Shown here: positions 24,284 through 35,625 of the stretch, in pieces | Layout of the letters: every line of letters begins with the position of its first letter | How positions within the stretch are numbered: position 1 is the stretch's first letter | DNA from: Bacteroidota bacterium | Lineage (GTDB): Bacteria; Bacteroidota; Bacteroidia; NS11-12g; UBA9320 | DNA: 64,000 nt | Reading direction: 5' to 3' | NCBI GenBank assembly: GCA_016124755.1 | Contig: WGNA01000018.1 | Coordinates: forward strand, 1-64,000 | Notes under the pieces: generated by a model | Told to the model about the DNA's origin: nothing | Seen by the model: the letters and a program-made list of their open reading frames with translations, nothing else | Databases searched by the model: none | Position numbers and translations under genes: made by a program

Positions 24284-25900
24284 TTGAAATCTCGAATTAC
24301 CCCTGCAGAGCTGCAACAACATTTCGATTCGCTCATTGAAAGTGCGATCGATGGAATTCTGATCATCGACGAAAAAGGCATCATGATCGAAGCGAACTCT
24401 TCGGTTCTCAAATTGTTCGGCTACCCAAAAGACGAAATTCTCGGCAGGAATGTGAATATGCTCATGCCTCATCCACACAGTCATTTGCACGATGGGTACA
24501 TGAGAAATTACATCGAAACCGGAATTGCCAAAATCATCGGAATCGGTCGGGAAGTCGAAGGTTTAAGAAAAGACGGAACCACCTTTCCTTTCCGGTTGGC
24601 AGTAGGCGAACTCAAAATTAAAAACGGCAGACTCTTTACCGGGTTTGTTCACGATCTCACCAAAGAAAAAGAGACCAGCGCTCAGTTAAAAGAATACGCC
24701 GAGCGACTCGAATCGAAGGTGAAAGACCGCACTGCTCAGCTCGAACAGGAAATCGAAATCAAGAAAAGAACAGAAACCGCACTTCTCGAGAGTCAGAAGT
24801 TATACGAAGCTATCGCGATAAACTTTCCCAACGGAACCATCAACGTGCTAGACCGCAATCTCAATTTCCTTTTCGTGGAAGGAAGTGGATTGAAACAACT
24901 CGGAATGGGAACCAAAGACCTCATTGGCAAATCGTATCTCGACCTGATTGATCCAGCCATAACAGAAATGGTATCCGAAAAACTCAACCGGGTTTTTGAA
25001 GGCGAAAGCGAAGATTTTGAAATTGAACTAAAGCACCTTGTTTTTAAAGTTCGCTCCGTTCCGTTGCCAAACGAAAACAACGAAATCGACCGCATTCTTC
25101 TCGTGGAAACCAACATTACCCAACAAAAAAAGGCAGAAGAAGAAATCTTTAATTCACTTAGAAAAGAAAAGGAACTGAACGACCTCAAATCGAGGTTTGT
25201 CTCCATGGCTTCGCACGAATTCAGAACTCCGCTGAGCACCATTCTTAGTTCTGCATCGCTCATTGAAAAATATCCGCAAACAGAAGATCAGCCCAAACGT
25301 GTAAAACACACCGAACGAATCCGGGGAAATGTTCGCAACCTTACATTAATATTAAATGATTTTCTCTCTCTCGAAAAACTCGATGCCGACAGCATTAGAA
25401 CCAACAAATCGCATTTTAATCTGTATCCGTTGGTTCAGGAAATAGCGGATGAATTTTTAGTACTGAAGAAGCCCGGTCAGAGCATCAAAATTAAATGTGC
25501 AAAGGAAGATTGTACGGTGTATTCTGATCCGTTTATCATTCAGAATGTACTAAACAATCTTATCTCAAACGCCATTAAATATTCCGGGCCAGAAAGCACC
25601 ATCACTATCGGAATGGAGTGCGACAACAAAAAATTGAAATTGTCGGTGTCTGACAATGGAAACGGTATTAGCACAGAAGATCAGAAATTTCTGTTTAACC
25701 GCTTTTACAGAGCCTCGAATGCAGGCAATGAACAAGGCACCGGACTCGGACTTCACATCGTAAGCCGGTACATCGATTTACTCGACGGTTCAATTTCTTT
25801 TGAATCAGAATTAGGCACGGGAACAACTTTTACGATAATATTGACGAACGCAATCATAGACTACGATACGAATGGACAAGAAGCGAATTCTGGTAATTGA
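24284..25900 (+). CDS. PAS sensor histidine kinase with FixL-like heme-PAS signature
   Basis: A 538-residue kinase with TTG start and no membrane segments, so a soluble sensor. PAS-1 (residues 15-125) closely follows the FixL heme-PAS: NVNMLMPHPHSHLHDGYM, IIGIGREVEGLRKDGTTFP, FTGFVHDLT. His69 aligns with the proximal heme ligand (His200 of B. japonicum FixL) and Arg89 with the oxygen-contacting Arg220; the Arg206 and His214 positions are Asn and Lys. A coiled coil (AERLESKVKDRTAQLEQEIE) leads to PAS-2. HisKA has SMASHEFRTPLS (His311), and the ATPase has NVLNNLISNAIKYS, SDNGNGIS and GTGLGLHIV. It overlaps the next gene by 29 bp, and cbb3 oxidase genes lie downstream. A heme oxygen sensor is inferred. 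Confidence 0.9.
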   Translation: MKSRITPAELQQHFDSLIESAIDGILIIDEKGIMIEANSSVLKLFGYPKDEILGRNVNMLMPHPHSHLHDGYMRNYIETGIAKIIGIGREVEGLRKDGTTFPFRLAVGELKIKNGRLFTGFVHDLTKEKETSAQLKEYAERLESKVKDRTAQLEQEIEIKKRTETALLESQKLYEAIAINFPNGTINVLDRNLNFLFVEGSGLKQLGMGTKDLIGKSYLDLIDPAITEMVSEKLNRVFEGESEDFEIELKHLVFKVRSVPLPNENNEIDRILLVETNITQQKKAEEEIFNSLRKEKELNDLKSRFVSMASHEFRTPLSTILSSASLIEKYPQTEDQPKRVKHTERIRGNVRNLTLILNDFLSLEKLDADSIRTNKSHFNLYPLVQEIADEFLVLKKPGQSIKIKCAKEDCTVYSDPFIIQNVLNNLISNAIKYSGPESTITIGMECDNKKLKLSVSDNGNGISTEDQKFLFNRFYRASNAGNEQGTGLGLHIVSRYIDLLDGSISFESELGTGTTFTIILTNAIIDYDTNGQEANSGN

Positions 25901-26903
25901 AGACAATAACGAGATCCGTGAAAACCTGGCGGAAATTCTGGAACTCGATGGTTATGAAGTGCTAACGGCAATTGATGGAAAAGCCGGAGCACAAAAGGCA
26001 CAGGAAGAACTTCCCGACCTTATTCTCTGCGACATCATGATGCCGAATCTCGACGGTTATGGTGTGCTCCATATTCTCAGTCGCAACGAAGCTACCCTGC
26101 GAATTCCGTTTATCTTTCTCACCGCAAAAGCAGAAAAAGGCGACATCCGCAAAGGCATGAGTCTCGGCGCTGATGATTACATCGTAAAACCTTTCGACGA
26201 AACCGACTTGCTCACAACCGTTGAAAACAAATTGCGAAAATTTCAGTCCATCGGAACAGCAACCCCGCAACGCGAGAGCAAAGGCGACATCGAAAACGCA
26301 TTCTCAAACAAACTGGTTAAATCCTTTGCAAAAAAAGAATCTGTTTACCGGGAAGGCGACACAGCAAACTATGTTTATAAATTAGTAAGCGGTAAGATCA
26401 AACTCATCCGGTATAGCGACGATGGAAAAGAGATGGTTATCGACCTTTTAAAACCTGGAGAATTTTTCGGCTATTGGTCGGTGTTGCAAAACGAACCCTC
26501 CGGGGAAGGTGCCGAAACACTTGAAGCGGCAACCATCGAATACATTCCCCGCGAAGAATTTTTGCGTGCTATTGAAGAAGATGTTACGGTTGCCGGCAAA
26601 TTCATCAAGCTGCTCAGCAACAATCTGCTCGCGAAAGAATACAAGATCGTAGAACTGGCGTACAATTCGGTTCGCAAAAGAGTTGCAAATGCGCTGGTTT
26701 CACTGGCCGATAAATACACAACCGACAAATCTAAACCGTTCAGCATGGCGGTTTCCCGCGAAACACTCGCGGGCATCGCCGGCACATCCATCGAGTCTTC
26801 GATCAGAATGCTGTCCGAGTTCAAACAAGACGGACTCGTTGATGTGGACAAAGCGAACATCACCATTATTAATTACGAAAAACTCAAAAAAGCACCCTAT
26901 TAA
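25872..26903 (+). CDS. Response regulator fused to a Crp/Fnr-type regulator
   Basis: A 343-residue fusion. Residues 1-125 are a receiver: ILVIEDNNEIRE, phospho-acceptor Asp54 in ILCDIMMPN, Thr84, Lys106 in IVKPFD. Residues about 145-260 are a cyclic-nucleotide-type beta-roll (VYREGDTANYVYKLVSGKIKLI, LLKPGEFFGYWSVL) without the four FNR cysteines. Residues about 265-335 are a Crp-type HTH. In the recognition helix GTSIESSIRML, Glu308 and Arg312 align with FNR Glu209 and Arg213, and Ile occupies the FNR Val208 place, suggesting TGA(T/C)-type half sites rather than CRP sites. The partner kinase is directly upstream. It probably combines the FixJ and FixK roles. Confidence 0.93.
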   Translation: MDKKRILVIEDNNEIRENLAEILELDGYEVLTAIDGKAGAQKAQEELPDLILCDIMMPNLDGYGVLHILSRNEATLRIPFIFLTAKAEKGDIRKGMSLGADDYIVKPFDETDLLTTVENKLRKFQSIGTATPQRESKGDIENAFSNKLVKSFAKKESVYREGDTANYVYKLVSGKIKLIRYSDDGKEMVIDLLKPGEFFGYWSVLQNEPSGEGAETLEAATIEYIPREEFLRAIEEDVTVAGKFIKLLSNNLLAKEYKIVELAYNSVRKRVANALVSLADKYTTDKSKPFSMAVSRETLAGIAGTSIESSIRMLSEFKQDGLVDVDKANITIINYEKLKKAPY

Positions 26904-27165
26904 GGGGAAGTACGAGGTAAGATCGACGATTTTCGATTTTGGATTTTCGTTCATAAATCGTCGATCGTACTTCGTCAATTCTCCTTCGTCTGCATTTCGA
27001 TCTTCACTTCTTCGTTTTTTCGATTTTCGATTTTCGTCCATCGTCGATCTGTCAAAGCAAATTCTTCTTCCTCCGTTTTTCGATCATCGTTTTTTCGTTT
27101 TTTCGATTTTCGTTTTTGGATTTTCATTCATAAATCGTCGAACTTGCCCCTGCACCAGCACTTAA
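26904..27165. repeat. Low-complexity TTTTCG/TCGATTTTCG region with a direct repeat
   Basis: About 260 bp rich in TTTTTCGATTTTCG and TCGTC. The block TTTTGGATTTTCGTTCATAA near 26938 recurs with minor changes near 27115, both followed by ATCGTCGA. Open frames here (26683..27165 plus, 26700..27041 minus) are compositional artefacts. Related Bacteroidota carry similar intergenic DNA. The following 27166..27304 holds the rhodanese promoter. Confidence 0.6.
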
Positions 27166-27253
27166 CAACCATCACAAATTCGGGATTCAAATCATATAAT
27201 CTGATTGCCCGATAAATAAGAACAGCTATTTAAATCTATATCATTCTGCAAAC

Positions 27254-27296
27254 TGACATTCATCATACAGCTCCGGTTCAGCCACATATTTTTTTG
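27254..27296 (+). promoter_or_regulatory. FNR-like box and promoter of the rhodanese gene
   Basis: TGAC-ATTC-ATCA at 27254..27265 (centre 27259.5), with TTTG ending at 27296, 36.5 bp from the centre. The same distance occurs at two promoters downstream (27728 and 30885). The second half-site differs from GTCA by one base, and the bases before TTTG are only T, so the -7 element is weaker than in the other two. Confidence 0.6.
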
Positions 27297-27304
27297 CGGT
27301 TGCA

Positions 27305-27652
27305 ATGGCGGACTACATACATATCGATGGCAAAACCGTGAGTCGACTTTTATCGGAACATCACGATATGCGCATTATCGATGTACGGTCGCGTCGCGAA
27401 TTCAGCGAGTCTCGTATTCCGGGTGCGCAAAACATCGACATTATGGCATCCAACGCCATCGAAGTTTTGACAAAACTCCGGAAAGATCTTCCGTATTTAA
27501 TTTATTGCAGTATAGGCGTGCGGTCCATCTCTACCGTAAAAATGATGGCTGATTTGGGTTTTACCGATTTGTATCATCTCGACAACGGACTTAACGGTTA
27601 CAACGGTCCGATCGACGAAACCTCCGGCAGTCGCATTCTGGACAAAGCCTGA
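27305..27652 (+). CDS. Single-domain rhodanese-like sulfurtransferase
   Basis: A 115-residue cytoplasmic rhodanese. The fold motifs are RIIDVRSRREFSESRIPGAQNID and the active-site loop YCSIGVRSISTVKMMADLGF, with the catalytic Cys in YCSIGVRS. The closing HLDNGLNGYNGPI is usual. Such enzymes carry persulfide sulfur. The gene stands alone between the two-component genes and the first universal stress gene, and its upstream box suggests it belongs to the same regulon. The physiological sulfur donor or acceptor is unknown. Confidence 0.9.
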   Translation: MADYIHIDGKTVSRLLSEHHDMRIIDVRSRREFSESRIPGAQNIDIMASNAIEVLTKLRKDLPYLIYCSIGVRSISTVKMMADLGFTDLYHLDNGLNGYNGPIDETSGSRILDKA

Positions 27653-27684
27653 TTACAGTTTTTTTGACTTAATCAATCGGATTC

Positions 27685-27728
27685 TTGACTTTAGTCATAC
27701 TCCTCTGTAATTTAACCCCGAATATTTG
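27685..27728 (+). promoter_or_regulatory. FNR-like box and promoter of the first universal stress gene
   Basis: TTGAC-TTTA-GTCAT at 27685..27698 (core TGAC-N4-GTCA, centre 27691.5). AATATTTG, a one-mismatch -7 element, ends at 27728, 36.5 bp from the centre. That puts the box about 41-44 bp upstream of the likely transcription start, where class II Crp/Fnr activators bind. A second imperfect site, TTGACTTAATCAA, lies just upstream at 27664. Confidence 0.7.
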
Positions 27729-27747
27729 TACCCGTTAACCTACCCGA

Positions 27748-28548
27748 ATGAAAACAATTCTTTGCCCTACAGACTTTTCGGATCAATCCCGCAAAGCAAT
27801 GACCTACGCAGCCAGAATGGCTCAGGTAATGGACGCCTCTGTTCATCTTATGCACGCCATGCATGTTCCCGTTGTGGATGCTTATGCGCCTGCACCAACT
27901 CTCGAAAACATGATGGTTGATGAACAGCTCCTTTGCGAAAAGAGAATTACCAACCTTGCCGAAGAGTTGTCAAGAGATTTTAAAATCAGAGTTACAACTA
28001 CTACGGAATTCGGACTTGCTACCGATGTAGTAACCAGTACCGAGAAAAAGCACTCAATCGATTTGGTGGTTATTTCCACACACGGAGCAACCAATGCCAT
28101 TGATCAGTGGCTCGGAACAACGGCTTCTCAAATCGTTGCCAAATCACTGGCGCCGACCATCGTTATTCCCAGAGACGCCGAATTCGAAGGTTTTAGCCGG
28201 GTTGGGTATGCAACCGATTTTACGCACGATTCAGACAGCACTGTTCATGCTTTTGCCGAAATCATGAAGCCGTTCAAATCCCAGATTTTTGTAGTTCATG
28301 TTTCTTCGGAATACGCATCAGACGATGAAATCGAGTCTATTATGAAACATTTCGAAGATGCTTCCGACCCGATTACCATTAAAGGTGAAGATGTGGCCAA
28401 CGAACTCAACGCATTTATTTGGGACAACGGAATCAACCTTCTTGCGATGAAACGACACAAACGCAGTTGGTTCGATAACCTCTTTCATAAATCCATTACC
28501 AAACAAATGATTTATCACAGTACAGTACCGTTGCTTATTTTTAATTAA
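27748..28548 (+). CDS. Universal stress protein, tandem UspA domains
   Basis: A 266-residue cytoplasmic protein with two UspA-like domains. The first opens MKTILCPTDFSDQSRKAMTYA and contains DLVVISTHGATNAIDQWLGTTASQIVAKS, a complete ATP-binding loop pattern G-2x-G-9x-G(S/T) variant. The second, weaker domain begins VGYATDFTHDSDSTVHAF and ends KSITKQMIYHSTVPLLIF. Two-domain Usp proteins commonly accompany oxygen-limitation regulons. Codon use is more C-rich than in the flanking accessory genes, which suggests strong expression. Its promoter carries an FNR-like box. Confidence 0.93.
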   Translation: MKTILCPTDFSDQSRKAMTYAARMAQVMDASVHLMHAMHVPVVDAYAPAPTLENMMVDEQLLCEKRITNLAEELSRDFKIRVTTTTEFGLATDVVTSTEKKHSIDLVVISTHGATNAIDQWLGTTASQIVAKSLAPTIVIPRDAEFEGFSRVGYATDFTHDSDSTVHAFAEIMKPFKSQIFVVHVSSEYASDDEIESIMKHFEDASDPITIKGEDVANELNAFIWDNGINLLAMKRHKRSWFDNLFHKSITKQMIYHSTVPLLIFN

Positions 28549-28629
28549 GAACAAAAAATTAAAAATTAGGGAATAGCAACAGACTAATTTGAATTAATCT
28601 TTTAACAAAAAATATAAAAAATAATCAAA

Positions 28630-29010
28630 ATGAAAACAGAATACATTTCAGAACTACACAGCCGCTACACGCAATGGAAAAAGGATCTTGAATTTTACAG
28701 AGATGAAATCAGAACCTTTAACACCCGTCTTGAAGAGCTGGTTTCTCAAAATACAAAAACAGAAGTTACAGCTCAGATCGAACACTTTCAGAATCAGTTT
28801 ATCCGGCAAAATGAAGTGATCGATACACTCGAACACGACATTCATGCAGAAGAACACAAACTGGCTGAGAATGCTCAGGCAAATACGGTTGCCGTAGAAC
28901 ATCGCAAAGTTGAAGAAAATACCGACCTCGGCGATCAGTTCGAAACCTTTGTGAAAATCTACAATGAACTCAAAAATGAGTTCACAGAGTTTATGGCTAA
29001 AACCTATTAA
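28630..29010 (+). CDS. Hypothetical coiled-coil protein in the stress operon
   Basis: A 126-residue, highly charged, almost entirely helical protein with heptad character (LHSRYTQWKKDLEFYRDEIRTFNTRLEELV, AQIEHFQNQFIRQNEVIDTLEHDI). It has no signal peptide or membrane segment. I do not recognise a named domain. It is 81 bp after the first universal stress gene and 10 bp before the next small gene, all on the same strand and with similar codon use, so a common role in the stress or microaerobic response is likely. Confidence 0.75.
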   Translation: MKTEYISELHSRYTQWKKDLEFYRDEIRTFNTRLEELVSQNTKTEVTAQIEHFQNQFIRQNEVIDTLEHDIHAEEHKLAENAQANTVAVEHRKVEENTDLGDQFETFVKIYNELKNEFTEFMAKTY

Positions 29011-29020
29011 TTGAGGTATT

Positions 29021-29383
29021 ATGCTTTTTACCGTTCACGCTAACGACACCATTCTGGATTTAAAAACGCGCTTCGCAGATTTATTTCCGGGTTTGAAACT
29101 GGAATTTTTTTCAGGTCATCACGAAAGCGGTGAAGGTTCGCCCCAAAAAGAAAAATTGGTTGGGACGATTGTGATAAAAGACATTCGTCCCGACTTAGGG
29201 GAAGTGCGTTTTATTATCGATTCGCACCTCACGGTTTCAGAACTGGAAAAAAAGTTTTTCGATGAAGCGGGTTTAAATATTCAGGTTTTTCGTAAAATGG
29301 GCGCTATTTGGCTCGAGACCGTTCAAACCGATAGCTACACTCTGCAGCAACAAATGGAAATGAGCGCCGAAAGCCGCACCTGA
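29021..29383 (+). CDS. Hypothetical protein in the stress operon
   Basis: A 120-residue protein with alternating strands and helices (MLFTVHANDTILDLKTRFADLFPGLKLEFF, GEVRFIIDSHLTVSELEKKFFDEAGLNIQVFRKMGAIWLETV). The pattern of two strand-strand-helix units hints at a ubiquitin-like or ferredoxin-like fold, but this is only inference. No catalytic motif is evident. It sits between the coiled-coil gene (10 bp upstream) and the second universal stress gene (11 bp downstream). Confidence 0.75.
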   Translation: MLFTVHANDTILDLKTRFADLFPGLKLEFFSGHHESGEGSPQKEKLVGTIVIKDIRPDLGEVRFIIDSHLTVSELEKKFFDEAGLNIQVFRKMGAIWLETVQTDSYTLQQQMEMSAESRT

Positions 29384-29394
29384 AACACTCTGGT

Positions 29395-30186
29395 ATGATC
29401 AACATTCTCCTCCCGACGGACTTCTCCGAAAACGCGAAGGCCGCCACCGACCTGGCCATTAGTCAGTTCAACCATTCGCAGGTTGAATTCCTTATCTACC
29501 ATGCCGTGATCCAACCGCGATCTTCCTCCGGCATGCTCGTGAACATCACCGACATTATGCTCGATGATGCGCGCAAACTACTCATTGAAGAAGAAAACAG
29601 AATCCGGGAAAAGTTTGGTGAGAGCGTTAAAATGCGCACCACAACCCATGTCGGATATATTGAAGATGTACTTCCGGTTTTAGCCCGAAAGGAAATGATT
29701 GATCTCGTGGTAATGGGAACCAAAGGCGAAAACGACGTCGCCTCCAAAGTACTCGGTTCCAATGCCGAACACGTGATCCGCAAAAGCCCGATTCCGGTAA
29801 TGACCATTCCGATGCCGGTTGGTATCGACCATATTAAAGAAGTAATTATTGCCACGGAAAAAGAAGAGCTTCCCCACGCGGCACAAATTGCGGAGATCTT
29901 TTCATCACTTGCACACAAACCGAATATATCCGTGCTCACCGTAATTACCGGCGATAAAGACAAAGCACCCAAGAGCGTTGAATTTCACGGTCACCAACTG
30001 CCCGTTCGAATTGTTAATGCCTCCAAAGCATCCGAAGGTATAGACGAATTTCTACACGAAAACGAAGTTGATCTGCTCGTGATGTACCATGTTCACAGCT
30101 CCCGCCTCGACTACCTCTTCAGCCGCAGCATCACCAAAAAGATGGCCGGCCATGTGGGAGTGCCGATGTTGGTGGTGAAGGAGTGA
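29395..30186 (+). CDS. Universal stress protein, tandem UspA domains
   Basis: A 263-residue second two-domain Usp. The first domain reads MINILLPTDFSENAKAATDLA and DLVVMGTKGENDVASKVLGSNAEHVIRKSPIPVMTIP, with the full Usp ATP loop G-x2-G-x9-G-(S/N). The second begins VIIATEKEELPHAAQIAEIF and ends KMAGHVGVPMLVV. It is last in the run 27748..30186. A hexamer array forming a large inverted repeat starts seven bases after its stop and could act as terminator. Confidence 0.93.
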   Translation: MINILLPTDFSENAKAATDLAISQFNHSQVEFLIYHAVIQPRSSSGMLVNITDIMLDDARKLLIEEENRIREKFGESVKMRTTTHVGYIEDVLPVLARKEMIDLVVMGTKGENDVASKVLGSNAEHVIRKSPIPVMTIPMPVGIDHIKEVIIATEKEELPHAAQIAEIFSSLAHKPNISVLTVITGDKDKAPKSVEFHGHQLPVRIVNASKASEGIDEFLHENEVDLLVMYHVHSSRLDYLFSRSITKKMAGHVGVPMLVVKE

Positions 30187-30192
30187 AGGGGG

Positions 30193-30291
30193 GCAGTAAC
30201 AGTAACAGTAACAGTAACAGTAGCTGTAACTGTAACAAAATCTGTTGCGGTTACAGTTACTGTTACAGTTCCTGCTACCGTTACCGATACC
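30193..30291. repeat. GTTACN hexamer array, self-complementary
   Basis: The left half (30194..30236) is repeated CAGTAA/CTGTAA units. The right half (30249..30287) is the complementary TTACTG/TTACAG/TTACCG units. A 12-base loop lies between, so the transcript can form a long hairpin. It fills the gap between the stop of the universal stress gene and the stop of the minus-strand gene at 30294. Confidence 0.85.
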
Positions 30292-30293
30292 CC

Positions 30294-30613
30294 TTATCCA
30301 TTCTTAGTCATTGAATATAATTGTTTGGAAATAACCTCCATTTGAATGAGTAAGTTATTGTGAATTTTATTTTCCAATAGCTTAATATCCAAAAGAAAAT
30401 CGAGAATCGCAATTGTTTCAAACAGCGATGCTCTCGACATTGTGAAAAAATGTCTTCTATCTCTAACCCCGCTTCGGCCTGCTCCTTCAGCAAGATTTAA
30501 AGATACACTCAACGCAGCTCTTGACAGTTGGTCTTTTAAATAAACATCCAATTTATTATTTCGACTAATCTTAAATATTTCAATATTTAGCTTTCAAATT
30601 TTTTGATAAACAT
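30294..30613 (-). pseudogene. Four-helix-bundle (23S rRNA intervening-sequence type) protein, probably decayed
   Basis: The open frame 30294..30551 (85 residues, TTG start) carries the family core: LKDQLSRAALSVSLNLAEGAGR, HFFTMSRASLFETIAILDFLLD. Homology continues upstream of that start in the same frame (IEIFKISRNNK) without an ATG. An ATG at 30613 in another frame encodes MFIKKFES, which looks like the normal beginning. A frameshift plus a small deletion near 30590 therefore seems to have damaged helix one. The family's role is unclear. The remnant lies between two hexamer arrays. Confidence 0.65.
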
Positions 30614-30737
30614 CTAAGTCGTGGAAAATAATCATGTGGAAATTTCAATCATTTAGATTGTGCTAAAAAATGTTGAATTAAAAATAAGTACTTATTTTTC
30701 GCAGGAAGCTTAAATTCCACTCTACCCATTCTAATCC

Positions 30738-30817
30738 CAGTTATTGTTACCGCAACCGCAACCGCTACAGTTACCGTTACCGCTACCGCTACCGTTACTG
30801 TTACAGTTACTGTTACC
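30738..30817. repeat. GTTACN hexamer array
   Basis: About 80 bp of TTACCG, CTACCG, TTACTG, TTACAG and related six-base units, in one orientation only. An open frame across it on the minus strand gives a VTVTVAVAV peptide, which is a repeat artefact. It lies upstream of the ccoI promoter. Confidence 0.85.
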
Positions 30818-30842
30818 CACTCCTTCAAATCAGTCACCTCCC

Positions 30843-30885
30843 TGACATCCGTCACAATTCAGACATAGCGTTCTGCGAACCTTTG
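30843..30885 (+). promoter_or_regulatory. FNR-like box and promoter of the cbb3 oxidase locus
   Basis: TGAC-ATCC-GTCA at 30843..30854 (centre 30848.5), and AACCTTTG ending at 30885, again 36.5 bp from the centre. A start of transcription about 5-8 bp further would leave almost no leader before the ATG at 30894. The GTG at 30885 falls inside the -7 element and is therefore unlikely to be the start. Confidence 0.7.
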
Positions 30886-30893
30886 TGCCAGTA

Positions 30894-33254
30894 ATGAAAC
30901 CTGCCACACGACACATTACGGCAAAATCTTCTGATGTCTGCGAGTACTGCGGCCAGACCTGCGGGGACGATACAGTTCTGCGCGACGGCCATAAATATTG
31001 CTGCTTCGGATGCGCGACCCTCGATCAGATTATGGTCGACGGGAAACTTCGGCTCAATGAAGTTCCGGTTGCTTTTCGCCAATATGATCTTCCCGAAATA
31101 TTTGATAAGGCGGTTGAAATGCAAACCGCAACTATTTATAAAATTCGCGTACATGCTCCGGCTATTCACTGTTCATCGTGCATCGAATTATTAGAAGACC
31201 TCCCGGAGATCGATAATCGGGTTCGACTCTGCCGGGTAAATTTTGAAGATCGTTCTGTTGAGGTAATTGCCTCCAAAGAAATTCTGCTCTCCGAATTGGT
31301 ATACCTGATGGATCAATTGGGATATCCTCCGCATTTTGATTTAAAAGGAAATCAGCGATCCGGTGAAATAAAAGAACAACGGGCACTCATTAAACGATTG
31401 GCAGTTACCGGATTTTGTTTCGGTAATTCAATGCTTTTCAGCTTGCCGCATTATATGGGCTTGCAATTGGCGAACGATCTTTTTTTTGCGAATCTCTTCA
31501 AAGTATTAAATCTGGCGTTATCGCTTATCGTACTTATTTACGGTGCACAACCGTATTTTTCATCCGCTTTTAAGGCAATTTCAGTTCGCAAATCACACAT
31601 TAATATTCCCATTGCAATTGGTGCAATTGCCATTTGGGTTTGGAGTGTTTACGAAATTATCAGCGGTACGGGGTTCGGATATTTTGATTCATTAGCCGGA
31701 CTCATTTTCTTCCTTCTGGCAGGCAAATGGTTTCAGTCGAGAGTATATCGAAAAGTAAGTTTCGACCGGTCACTTCACGACTTGTTGCCGATGACCGTGA
31801 GAATCCGGAAAAACAACGGATTGGAAAACGAATGGAAATCCATCCGGGATTTGGAAGTGGGCGATATTATTTCAGTTAAACACGGTGAGGTAATTCCGGT
31901 TACCGGTGAATTGGTCGGCGGTCATGCGCGGATCGATTACAGTTTCGTAACCGGAGAAAGTATTCCGCAACGCGTAAACGAAGGTGAAAAAATATACATC
32001 GGCGGAAAACAAACCGGTGGAGACATAACCTTAAAAATAACGGTTAAGCCGGATCCGGATTCGGTGTGGTCGGCCTGGAAAACACCGAAAAACGAAGAAG
32101 AAAATATTCACTGGACACATATCGTTAGCCGATATTTTACGCCTGCTATTTTACTAATTGCGGTGGTTGCTGCTGCAATTTGGTTGTGGATTGATGCGGG
32201 TAAAGCACTCTTTGTTTTTAGTTCAGTTTTAATAGTTGCCTGTCCGTGTGCTTTGGCGTTATCCGCGCCATTCACCTACGGAAGTATTCAGCGCTATTTC
32301 AGTAAAAACGGATTGTATTTAAAAGCTTCCGAATTAATTGGAAAAATACCTCGAATTAATCATTTGGTTTTTGATAAAACAGGAACTCTTACCGAAAACG
32401 GTTCTGCCGAAGTAACCGAGTTGTGGAATCATCTCGACGACGAGGAAACACGGGTTCTGAAATCCCTCTCAGTTGCCGGAAACCATATTGTCGGTAACTG
32501 GATGAATGATTATTTACAAAACACCACACTCACCAATTTGGATAAAGTTGAAATACATCCGGGTTTAGGGGTGGAAGCGTCGGTAAATGGCGAATCTTTT
32601 AGAATAGGTTCTGCCAATTATTTAAAAATACCAAAGCCGGTTAACGGAACTCATCTTTTGGTGGAGGTGAATGGCGGAGTTAAAGCCGCTTTCAGTTTTG
32701 CGAATAAATACCGGAAAGGATTAACTACTCTTCTCAACTCACTCGGCCGGCACTATAAAATTTCGGTATTGTCGGGAGATAATGATGGTGAGAGATCTGC
32801 ATTAATGGATCAGTTTGGCGGGTTTGCGCATTTGAGTTTTAACAATAAACCCGAAGACAAAAAGAATTTTATGAATCAATTGCACGATGCAGGCGATTCT
32901 GTTTTGATGATTGGAGACGGCCTCAACGATCAGGTGGCGTTGGCTACCAGTGATCTGGGTTTTGTGGTAACCGATAATATGAGTGGATTTTATCCGAATG
33001 CCGATGGCGTGCTCATGTCGGATCAGTTTGAGAAACTCCCCCTTCTTATGGAACTGGCGGCTTACTCTCAAAAGGTGCTGAGAACCAGTCTCATTTTTTC
33101 TGTGATGTACAACCTTCTTGGGATCTCCTTTGCGGTCACAGGGCACTTGAATCCTTTGATTGCAGCGGTGCTGATGCCGCTGAGCTCTATAACTGTGGTA
33201 GGTTTAGTGACCGCACTGGTATCCCGTAAAGCAAAGCAACTTCAATTGAAATGA
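30894..33254 (+). CDS. ccoI: Copper-translocating P-type ATPase for cbb3 oxidase assembly
   Basis: It exports copper needed for the CuB centre of cbb3 oxidase. From the ATG at 30894 the protein is about 786 residues. The N-terminal cysteine-rich domain is CEYCGQTCGDD...CCFGCATL. A heavy-metal domain with IHCSSC follows, then membrane helices, phosphatase loop TGESIP, the ion site CPCALALS, the phosphorylation site DKTGTLTENG and the hinge GDGLNDQVALATSD. The CPC motif and cysteine-rich N-terminus mark the CcoI/FixI type. It overlaps ccoS by four bases and opens the oxidase operon. Confidence 0.95.
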   Translation: MKPATRHITAKSSDVCEYCGQTCGDDTVLRDGHKYCCFGCATLDQIMVDGKLRLNEVPVAFRQYDLPEIFDKAVEMQTATIYKIRVHAPAIHCSSCIELLEDLPEIDNRVRLCRVNFEDRSVEVIASKEILLSELVYLMDQLGYPPHFDLKGNQRSGEIKEQRALIKRLAVTGFCFGNSMLFSLPHYMGLQLANDLFFANLFKVLNLALSLIVLIYGAQPYFSSAFKAISVRKSHINIPIAIGAIAIWVWSVYEIISGTGFGYFDSLAGLIFFLLAGKWFQSRVYRKVSFDRSLHDLLPMTVRIRKNNGLENEWKSIRDLEVGDIISVKHGEVIPVTGELVGGHARIDYSFVTGESIPQRVNEGEKIYIGGKQTGGDITLKITVKPDPDSVWSAWKTPKNEEENIHWTHIVSRYFTPAILLIAVVAAAIWLWIDAGKALFVFSSVLIVACPCALALSAPFTYGSIQRYFSKNGLYLKASELIGKIPRINHLVFDKTGTLTENGSAEVTELWNHLDDEETRVLKSLSVAGNHIVGNWMNDYLQNTTLTNLDKVEIHPGLGVEASVNGESFRIGSANYLKIPKPVNGTHLLVEVNGGVKAAFSFANKYRKGLTTLLNSLGRHYKISVLSGDNDGERSALMDQFGGFAHLSFNNKPEDKKNFMNQLHDAGDSVLMIGDGLNDQVALATSDLGFVVTDNMSGFYPNADGVLMSDQFEKLPLLMELAAYSQKVLRTSLIFSVMYNLLGISFAVTGHLNPLIAAVLMPLSSITVVGLVTALVSRKAKQLQLK

Positions 33255-33426: not shown

Positions 33427-35625
33427 ATGCAAAAAGAACAATTTAGTTACGACAACACCATCGTCCGGAACTTCGCCATTGCCACCATGGTTTGGGGAAT
33501 AGTCGGGATGTTGGTTGGGGTAATCATTGCAACCCAGCTGTTTGAGCCCGCAATGAACCTGAATCTCAGGTATGTCACCTTTGGGCGAATCAGACCTCTT
33601 CACACGAACGCGGTAATCTTCGCATTCGTTGGCAACGCGATCTTTACGGGTGTTTACTACTCGCTTCAACGTCTGCTTAAAGCACGGATGTTCAGCGATG
33701 TTTTGAGTAAAATCCACTTCTGGGGATGGCAGCTTATTATCGTTTCCGCTGCACTCACACTGCCCATGGGATTCACTTCCTCAAAAGAGTATGCTGAGCT
33801 CGAATGGCCTATCGACATTGCCATCACCATCATCTGGGTGGTGTTCGGTTGGAACATGATCGGAACCATAGTGAAACGCCGCGAACGTCACATGTACGTT
33901 GCCATTTGGTTCTATCTTGCAACCTTTCTTACGGTTGCTCTTCTTCACGTCGTAAACTCTTTTGAATTACCGGTTACTTTCATGAAAAGTTATAGCTGGT
34001 ATGCGGGTGTTCAGGATGCTTTGGTGCAATGGTGGTATGGCCACAATGCGGTTGCATTCTTCCTCACCACGCCGTACCTCGGACTGATGTATTACTTTAT
34101 GCCAAAGCTGGCTGAAAGACCGATCTACTCATACAAACTTTCCATTCTCCACTTCTGGTCACTGATTTTCATTTATATATGGGCAGGTCCGCACCACTTG
34201 TTGTATTCTTCTCTTCCCGACTGGGCGCAGACGCTCGGGGTTGCCTTCTCGGTGATGCTTATCGCTCCGAGTTGGGGAGGTATGCTTAACGGACTTCTCA
34301 CACTCCGCGGAGCCTGGGATAAAGTTCGGGACGATGCGAGATTAAAATTCATGGTTGTGGGTATTACCGCTTATGGTATGGCCACTTTCGAAGGTCCGAT
34401 GTTGTCGCTGAAAAACGTGAACGCCATCGCACACTTCACAGATTGGATCGTTAGCCACGTTCACGTTGGTGCTTTGGGTTGGAACGGCTTCCTCACATTC
34501 GGAATGCTCTACTACATTATTCCTAAAATCTACAACACAAAACTGTTCTCAACCAAACTCGTTTCAACCCACTTCTGGATTGGTACAATGGGAATAATTT
34601 TCTATGCGGTTCCGATGTATATCTCCGGATTTACTCAGGGTGTGATGTGGAAGCAATTCACCGCCGATGGAATGCTAAAATATCCCAACTTCCTCGAAAC
34701 CACCCTTCAGATTTTACCGATGCACATGCTCCGGGCTTTCGGAGGATTACTCTATTTAACCGGTGTAATCATCATGGTGGTGAATCTGGCTAAAACCATG
34801 AGACAGGGAAGTTTAGTGAGAAATGAAGAAGCCGAAGCTTACGCATTAACCAAAGAAGAAAATGCGCCGGGTGCAACTTACTGGCACCGCTGGATTGAAA
34901 GACGTCCAACTCAGTTTATCATCATGGCGTTTATTATGGTTGCAATCGGAGGAGCGGTAGAATTTCTGCCAACCTTCCTGATAAAATCCAACATTAAAAC
35001 CATTGAGAGCGTAACACCTTATACGCCGCTCGAACTGGCCGGTCGTGATATTTATATCCGGGAAGGTTGTAATAACTGTCACAGCCAGTTGGTGCGTCCG
35101 TTTCGTTCCGAAACGGTTCGATACGGCGACTATGCAAAGGCCGGCGAAAACGTTTACGATCACCCGTTTTTGTGGGGTTCAAAACGAACCGGTCCGGATT
35201 TATCGAGATCTGGTGACGAAACCGGTGTGTTCCGAAAAGGGGCTGAGTGGCACTTCAAACACATGTGGGATCCGCGTTCCACTTCTCCGGGTTCCATTAT
35301 GCCACGCTATATGTGGTTATACGAAGACAACATCGACGTGGCTGCACTTCCGGCTAAAATTTCGGCCATGAGAACTTTAAATGTTCCCTATGAAGAAGGC
35401 AAGGAAGACAAGGTTGAAGCGGAAGTTAGTGAACAGGCGGAGGCAATCTGGAAACAACTTCAGACTTCCGAAAAAGGCATCGAACAACAGATGCTGGCTG
35501 AAAAAGGAATCGCGGTTGATCAGAATAAAGAGATCATCGCACTAATTGCCTATCTGCACAAACTGGGTCGAGATATACATCCGAAGGAAAATTCAGACAA
35601 TCAAACCGCACTCAATAATAAATAG
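33427..35625 (+). CDS. ccoNO: Fused cbb3-type cytochrome c oxidase subunits I and II
   Basis: Catalytic subunit of the high-affinity terminal oxidase, reducing oxygen to water and pumping protons. The 732-residue protein joins CcoN and CcoO, as is usual in Bacteroidota. The CcoN part has about 12 helices with heme and CuB ligands in RPLHTNAVIFAFVGNA, WWYGHNAVAFFL, GPHHLLYSSLPDW and SHVHVGALGWNGF. The CcoO part begins near residue 510 with a membrane anchor, then the c-type heme site CNNCH (548-552) and SQLVRPFRSETVRYGDY. Met in PGSIMPRYMWL is the likely axial ligand. It is in operon with ccoS and ccoQ. Confidence 0.97.
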   Translation: MQKEQFSYDNTIVRNFAIATMVWGIVGMLVGVIIATQLFEPAMNLNLRYVTFGRIRPLHTNAVIFAFVGNAIFTGVYYSLQRLLKARMFSDVLSKIHFWGWQLIIVSAALTLPMGFTSSKEYAELEWPIDIAITIIWVVFGWNMIGTIVKRRERHMYVAIWFYLATFLTVALLHVVNSFELPVTFMKSYSWYAGVQDALVQWWYGHNAVAFFLTTPYLGLMYYFMPKLAERPIYSYKLSILHFWSLIFIYIWAGPHHLLYSSLPDWAQTLGVAFSVMLIAPSWGGMLNGLLTLRGAWDKVRDDARLKFMVVGITAYGMATFEGPMLSLKNVNAIAHFTDWIVSHVHVGALGWNGFLTFGMLYYIIPKIYNTKLFSTKLVSTHFWIGTMGIIFYAVPMYISGFTQGVMWKQFTADGMLKYPNFLETTLQILPMHMLRAFGGLLYLTGVIIMVVNLAKTMRQGSLVRNEEAEAYALTKEENAPGATYWHRWIERRPTQFIIMAFIMVAIGGAVEFLPTFLIKSNIKTIESVTPYTPLELAGRDIYIREGCNNCHSQLVRPFRSETVRYGDYAKAGENVYDHPFLWGSKRTGPDLSRSGDETGVFRKGAEWHFKHMWDPRSTSPGSIMPRYMWLYEDNIDVAALPAKISAMRTLNVPYEEGKEDKVEAEVSEQAEAIWKQLQTSEKGIEQQMLAEKGIAVDQNKEIIALIAYLHKLGRDIHPKENSDNQTALNNK

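Follow-up and report, generated by a model that had tools for sequence, protein, structure and literature searches.

Three FNR-like promoter boxes beside a receiver–FNR fusion gene in a Bacteroidota genome: one part of a conserved tandem site with a probable role in inducing genes for respiration at low oxygen

Activator sites and the control of genes by oxygen are poorly mapped in the Bacteroidota. The locus described here, which lies in a 64,000-nucleotide stretch of a Bacteroidota genome (the window; contig WGNA01000018.1), touches on both: close to a gene encoding a receiver domain fused to an FNR-like protein, three promoters carry an FNR-like box at the same distance from a TTTG element. 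Why should three boxes be placed in this way, and which protein do they serve? A preliminary description of this DNA had assigned the boxes to the class II activator position ahead of rhodanese, universal stress and ccoI genes, and had named the neighbouring fusion as the obvious candidate to bind them. In what follows, we examine the spacing of the boxes, their conservation in related genomes and the proteins that might recognise them.

Three promoters with a fixed spacing

At each of the three promoters a TGAC-N4-RTCA box is followed after exactly 27 bp by TTTG, the final G of which falls at 27296, 27728 and 30885, respectively. Rechecking the coordinates in the window showed that all three boxes, their centres and the TTTG positions had been reported correctly. 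The elements are listed below; the matrix referred to was trained on related genomes and is described later in this section.

27232..27243, + strand: promoter 1, distal slot AAATCTATATCA; ATCA half on the right intact, in exact tandem register with the proximal box 22 bp downstream
27254..27265, + strand: promoter 1, proximal box TGACATTCATCA, FNR-like; centre predicted at -41.5 (pattern and relatives' matrix)
27289..27296, + strand: promoter 1, -7 element TTTTTTTG; weak match to TAnnTTTG
27664..27675, + strand: promoter 2, distal slot TTGACTTAATCA; ATCA half on the right intact, TGAC displaced by 1 bp
27686..27697, + strand: promoter 2, proximal box TGACTTTAGTCA (pattern and relatives' matrix)
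27721..27728, + strand: promoter 2, -7 element AATATTTG (TTTG pattern)
30821..30832, + strand: promoter 3, distal slot TCCTTCAAATCA; ATCA half on the right intact
30843..30854, + strand: promoter 3, proximal box TGACATCCGTCA (pattern and relatives' matrix)
30878..30885, + strand: promoter 3, -7 element AACCTTTG (TTTG pattern)

In the start-site map of F. psychrophilum the TAnnTTTG box spans -12 to -5 (PMC9723704) and, since the centre of each box lies 36.5 bp above the final G, the boxes are predicted to be centred at -41.5, the position typical of class II activators. The assignment made previously is thus supported by this map, for predicted starts, and by conservation of the spacing across the Bacteroidota. 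All three -7 elements deviate from TAnnTTTG. Leaders of only 4 nt are predicted for two of the three promoters, which is plausible because Bacteroidota lack Shine–Dalgarno signals (PMC6847099).

The box by itself is not enriched in the window (five matches against 3.8 expected) and was rejected as a signal; it is therefore the fixed spacing that is unusual. TGACN4RTCA-N27-TTTG is matched three times in the 64-kb window against an expectation of 0.05, and none of 100 shuffles produced three matches. The genome-wide search suggested in the preliminary description bears this out: across the whole 4.05-Mb genome there are 31 cases of a box with TTTG at 12–42 bp, or about one per spacing, with the 27-bp spacing occurring five times, three of them at the window promoters. 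A matrix trained on relatives only, with no window sequence included, gave a similar picture when applied to the 64-kb window. The three promoters are the only sites there scoring at least 6 (25.4, 22.1 and 14.8), the null expectation being 0.1 sites per window at a score of at least 14.

A double box in related genomes

Comparison of 109 loci around relatives of the receiver–FNR fusion, in which distances from TGAN6TCA to TTTG were counted, revealed two sharp peaks: 129 boxes at 27 bp and 119 at 49 bp, with a background of around 13 elsewhere. The proximal box is also present in 105 of 117 gap-49 sites and the box at 49 bp in 88 of 124 gap-27 sites (background 4.6%), so the two peaks represent a single structure. 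The full unit reads TGAyN4rTCA-N10-TGAyN4rTCA-N27-TTTG, with an A at -11 (the A of TAnnTTTG), and it is rigid in both dimensions. Perfect (12/12) tandems number 56 at a gap of 27, nine at 26, two at 28 and 0–2 elsewhere, whilst by inter-box spacing there are 56 at N10, seven at N11, two at N9 and none elsewhere. The distal box is predicted to be centred at -63.5, two helical turns upstream. We found no support for better conservation of the inner half-sites as a general rule, all four halves being about equally intact.

Seen against this unit, the window promoters retain one box and a remnant of the other. At all three, the left half of the distal box has been lost but ATCA remains in exact register, 22 bp upstream of its proximal counterpart (27240–27243, 27672–27675 and 30829–30832). 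The fixed box–TTTG spacing noted in the earlier account therefore stands, whereas the two-box nature of the unit had been overlooked: what the window sites represent is one half of a conserved pair of boxes, the probable function of which is to switch on genes for low-oxygen respiration. A search of the whole genome for TCA-N10-TGAN6TCA-N26..28-TTTG found six sites, compared with none in a reversed control. Three are the window promoters, all no more than 5 kb from the fusion gene; of the others, one lies before an SQR-like FAD oxidoreductase gene, one before an NAD-binding epimerase-like gene and one inside a coding frame. The oxidoreductase gene (contig C29:38698-40247, L201) has a full tandem, TGATCATTCTCA-N10-TGACTGAGGTCA-N28-TTTG, in which TTTG lies one base further from the proximal box.

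The genes behind the window boxes are as follows.

27305..27652, + strand: rhodanese-domain gene (Pfam Rhodanese); predicted leader of ~4 nt
27748..28548, + strand: universal stress protein gene USP1 (Pfam Usp)
30894..33254, + strand: CcoI-type P-type ATPase gene (cbb3 assembly), first of ccoI-S-NO-P-G-H (Pfam E1-E2_ATPase; NCBIfam heavy-metal ATPase)
33427..35625, + strand: fused ccoN-ccoO gene, cbb3 oxidase (NCBIfam ccoN, ccoO)

Matches to NCBIfam models identify ccoN, ccoO and ccoG downstream of the CcoI gene. Several relatives keep the same order of genes (kinase, fusion, rhodanese, USP, two small proteins, USP, ccoI, ccoNO, ccoP, ccoG), and in these syntenic genomes tandem sites are found before the rhodanese, USP1 and ccoI genes (G025), the rhodanese and USP1 genes (G013), USP1 and ccoI (G028) or a rhodanese-like gene and ccoI (G005). 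That the same genes carry the site at the same distance supports the three target genes proposed previously. At the wider set of relatives' loci, the genes behind the sites encode USP, ccoNO, ccoI, HSP20, hemN, hemA, Ric, DoxX and kinases, a list that closely overlaps the core FNR/FixK regulon of the alpha-proteobacteria (PMC2908626). Members of an FNR/FixK-type regulon are accordingly present both in the relatives (cbb3, ccoI, USP, hemN and hemA) and in the window (ccoI and USP).

Some further features of the surrounding DNA may be recorded here. The two small conserved proteins (126 and 120 amino acids; window 28630–29383) that keep their place between the USP genes in relatives have no match in Pfam or NCBIfam. 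Between USP2 and ccoI lies a small minus-strand gene (30297–30581), judged from its sequence to encode a four-helix-bundle/S23-like protein and having no other copy in this genome. On either side of it are long inverted arms consisting of repeated GTAACA/GTTACC hexamers (104 nt, 72% complementary; window 30171–30841). The right arm stops close to the distal box of promoter 3, so the DNA upstream of ccoI may include sequence newly acquired by insertion. The region between the fusion gene and promoter 1 (window 26910–27150) contains low-complexity CGATTTTCG/TTTTTCG repeats and inverted AAATCGTCGA segments.

Candidate regulators

Two genes upstream of promoter 1 encode a putative sensor and regulator pair.

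24284..25900, + strand: sensor histidine kinase with a FixL-type haem PAS domain (PAS-PAS-HisKA-HATPase; Pfam PAS, HisKA, HATPase); start codon uncertain
25872..26903, + strand: receiver-CNMP-HTH_Crp fusion (P0001), the proposed activator (Pfam Response_reg, cNMP_binding, HTH_Crp_2)

The first PAS domain of the kinase matches FixL structures (E 7.6e-32), and the alignment pairs both the ligand-histidine and the IIGIGR motif. Both the proximal His and the distal Arg of a FixL-type PAS domain are present, and haem binding is predicted. In FixL these residues correspond to His200, the haem ligand, and to the distal Arg220. Among the 95 best-matching PAS segments from relatives the His is kept in 89, with the Arg position occupied by Arg in 49 and by Met in 25 (including L050–L056, L068 and L080), as in DosP-type haem PAS domains, which suggests that two sensor subtypes feed the same regulator family.

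The fusion belongs to the Crp/Fnr family (PF00027, E 5.8e-20; PF13545, E 3.3e-14) and its receiver is that of an intact two-component response regulator, with D11, D54, T84 and K106 in columns that are invariant or nearly so among 17 sequences. Its recognition helix is GTSIESSIRMLSEFK. By residue inspection the protein has no N-terminal 4Fe-4S cysteine cluster, its sole cysteine being C53 in the receiver, and it is thus not an FNR proper; nor, in Pfam searches, does it have a LuxR/GerE-type HTH, its output being CNMP-HTH_Crp, which sets it apart from FixJ. Only two other Crp-type proteins in the genome pass the family cut-off. One of these has a different recognition helix. The other is a stand-alone FNR-like paralogue (C1:356247-356960) with an E..IR recognition helix, GSTYESVIRMLNEL, similar to that of the fusion, and with clustered N-terminal cysteines (C-x4-C-x2-C). 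The paralogue gene is divergent from that for the Fe-S repair protein Ric (L200, C1:356247-357862), whose promoter has a single box, TGATGTTCGTCA-N27-TTTG.

When the tandem was counted in relatives' genomes at up to one mismatch, it was found in 39 of 43 with the fusion, in all 16 whose only homologue is a stand-alone one and in 10 of 32 with neither. The odds ratio for co-occurrence of fusion and tandem is 42 across 296 genomes of the phylum and 8.3 within the class, kinship making the p-values optimistic, and in 14 of the 43 fusion genomes of the phylum sample, many from one family, no tandem was detected. The tandem is therefore found chiefly where the genome encodes the fusion or a stand-alone relative of FNR. 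The idea that it is unique to fusion genomes had to be abandoned: the site cannot be assigned to the fusion alone, because genomes with only a stand-alone FNR share it and because a paralogue exists here. Judging from the likeness of the helices and the shared use of the tandem, the site is instead that of a clade of Bacteroidota FNR proteins with the fusion among its members. The proposal that the fusion is the obvious binder consequently needs qualifying. Conservation of the neighbourhood and co-occurrence favour it, and at its own locus no other protein is as likely to bind, but it is quite possible that the paralogue uses the sites too.

Could the paralogue be the main binder, with the fusion binding elsewhere or sharing the sites? 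Its helix and cysteines, the box at the adjoining Ric promoter and the tandem in fusion-less genomes that have stand-alone, Cys-bearing homologues are all consistent with this. Nevertheless, half of the genome-wide half-tandem sites cluster around the fusion gene, in relatives a site is often found at the gene immediately following that for the fusion, and nearly all of the related fusion genomes have tandems; we regard the paralogue as an unlikely principal binder, though as a serious rival or partner of the fusion. Far less probable is that the boxes are repressor sites or serve an unrelated regulator that shares the TGA-N6-TCA motif. Crp/Fnr boxes that overlap a promoter can indeed repress, but -41.5 is an activator position, the -7 elements are weak and the targets match the known FNR/FixK regulon, and just three Crp-type proteins pass the family cut-off in this genome, the third having a different helix. 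As for a chance coincidence of three boxes with three TTTG tetramers, the lack of enrichment of the box alone might be cited in its favour, but the shuffles, the independent matrix, the perfect-tandem spacing counts and conservation at the same genes in relatives refute it, and we reject it.

A putative oxygen-responsive circuit and its known counterparts

Our preferred reading, to which we assign a probability of a little under three in four, is that the boxes are operators of class II promoters induced at low oxygen and bound by the kinase-phosphorylated fusion. As oxygen falls, the FixL-like haem kinase would become active and phosphorylate the adjacent fusion, two dimers of which would then bind side by side, centred at -63.5 and -41.5, with the proximal dimer touching RNA polymerase and recruiting it to the weak -7 element. 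The rhodanese, universal stress and cbb3-oxidase genes would be switched on as a result, the distal site at the three window promoters having presumably decayed to one half-site. The fusion would thus combine in one protein the roles of FixJ (receiver) and FixK (Crp/Fnr activator). Of this reading, the geometry of the boxes and its conservation, the identity of the target genes, the co-occurrence of site and regulator and the domain composition are observed; that the fusion binds, that it is phosphorylated, that oxygen is the signal and that the effect is activation and not repression are inferred. A bolder proposal, which we consider doubtful, is that a FixJ–FixK-like fusion fed by a haem kinase acts on the rigid 22-bp double operator (proximal centre -41.5) throughout the Bacteroidota, that the oxygen threshold is fixed by phosphorylation-dependent contacts of the receivers in adjacent dimers and that the decayed distal boxes seen here tune it.

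In F. psychrophilum, the cbb3 oxidase and haem synthesis are induced at low oxygen in a study whose main text mentions neither Fnr nor Crp (PMC9723704). A literature search, with most subscription journals outside its scope, found no paper on a Bacteroidota receiver–FNR fusion or FNR operator. What the present analysis offers is a precise operator (two boxes, 22 bp apart, the proximal one at a predicted -41.5), a conserved list of targets and a candidate circuit that unites two steps of the rhizobial cascade in one protein; the tandem pattern could also guide the prediction of low-oxygen regulons throughout the phylum.

One close counterpart is the FixL–FixJ–FixK system of rhizobia and Caulobacter, which likewise has a FixL-type haem PAS kinase, a receiver step, a Crp/Fnr-type activator and cbb3 and CcoI targets. 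Here, however, receiver and activator form one polypeptide, there is no FixJ-type LuxR output and no separate fixK in the locus, and the promoter is of the Bacteroidota TAnnTTTG type with a tandem operator. The FNR/FnrL regulon of the alpha-proteobacteria has the same type of box (for example, the FnrL site TTGACttcaGTCAA) and the same targets, namely cbb3, a P-type ATPase, USP, hemN and hemA (PMC2908626), but FNR senses oxygen through a 4Fe-4S cluster whereas the fusion has a single cysteine, in its receiver. Stand-alone, Cys-bearing FNR homologues of the Bacteroidota have a very similar helix (GTATETxIRLLSxFK) and the same tandem in their genomes but lack the receiver domain, their N-terminal cysteines suggesting direct Fe-S sensing. 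Class II and tandem CRP/FNR promoters of E. coli have a proximal site at -41.5 and a second, upstream site on the same face of the helix; in the Bacteroidota the tandem is fixed at 22 bp from centre to centre, a -7 TAnnTTTG element replaces the -10 and -35 elements and the primary sigma factor is that of the Bacteroidota. FixL, receiver, Crp/Fnr protein and class II promoter are thus all of known kinds, and what appears new, as judged from a limited literature search, is the fusion of the FixJ and FixK roles together with a rigid tandem operator in the Bacteroidota.
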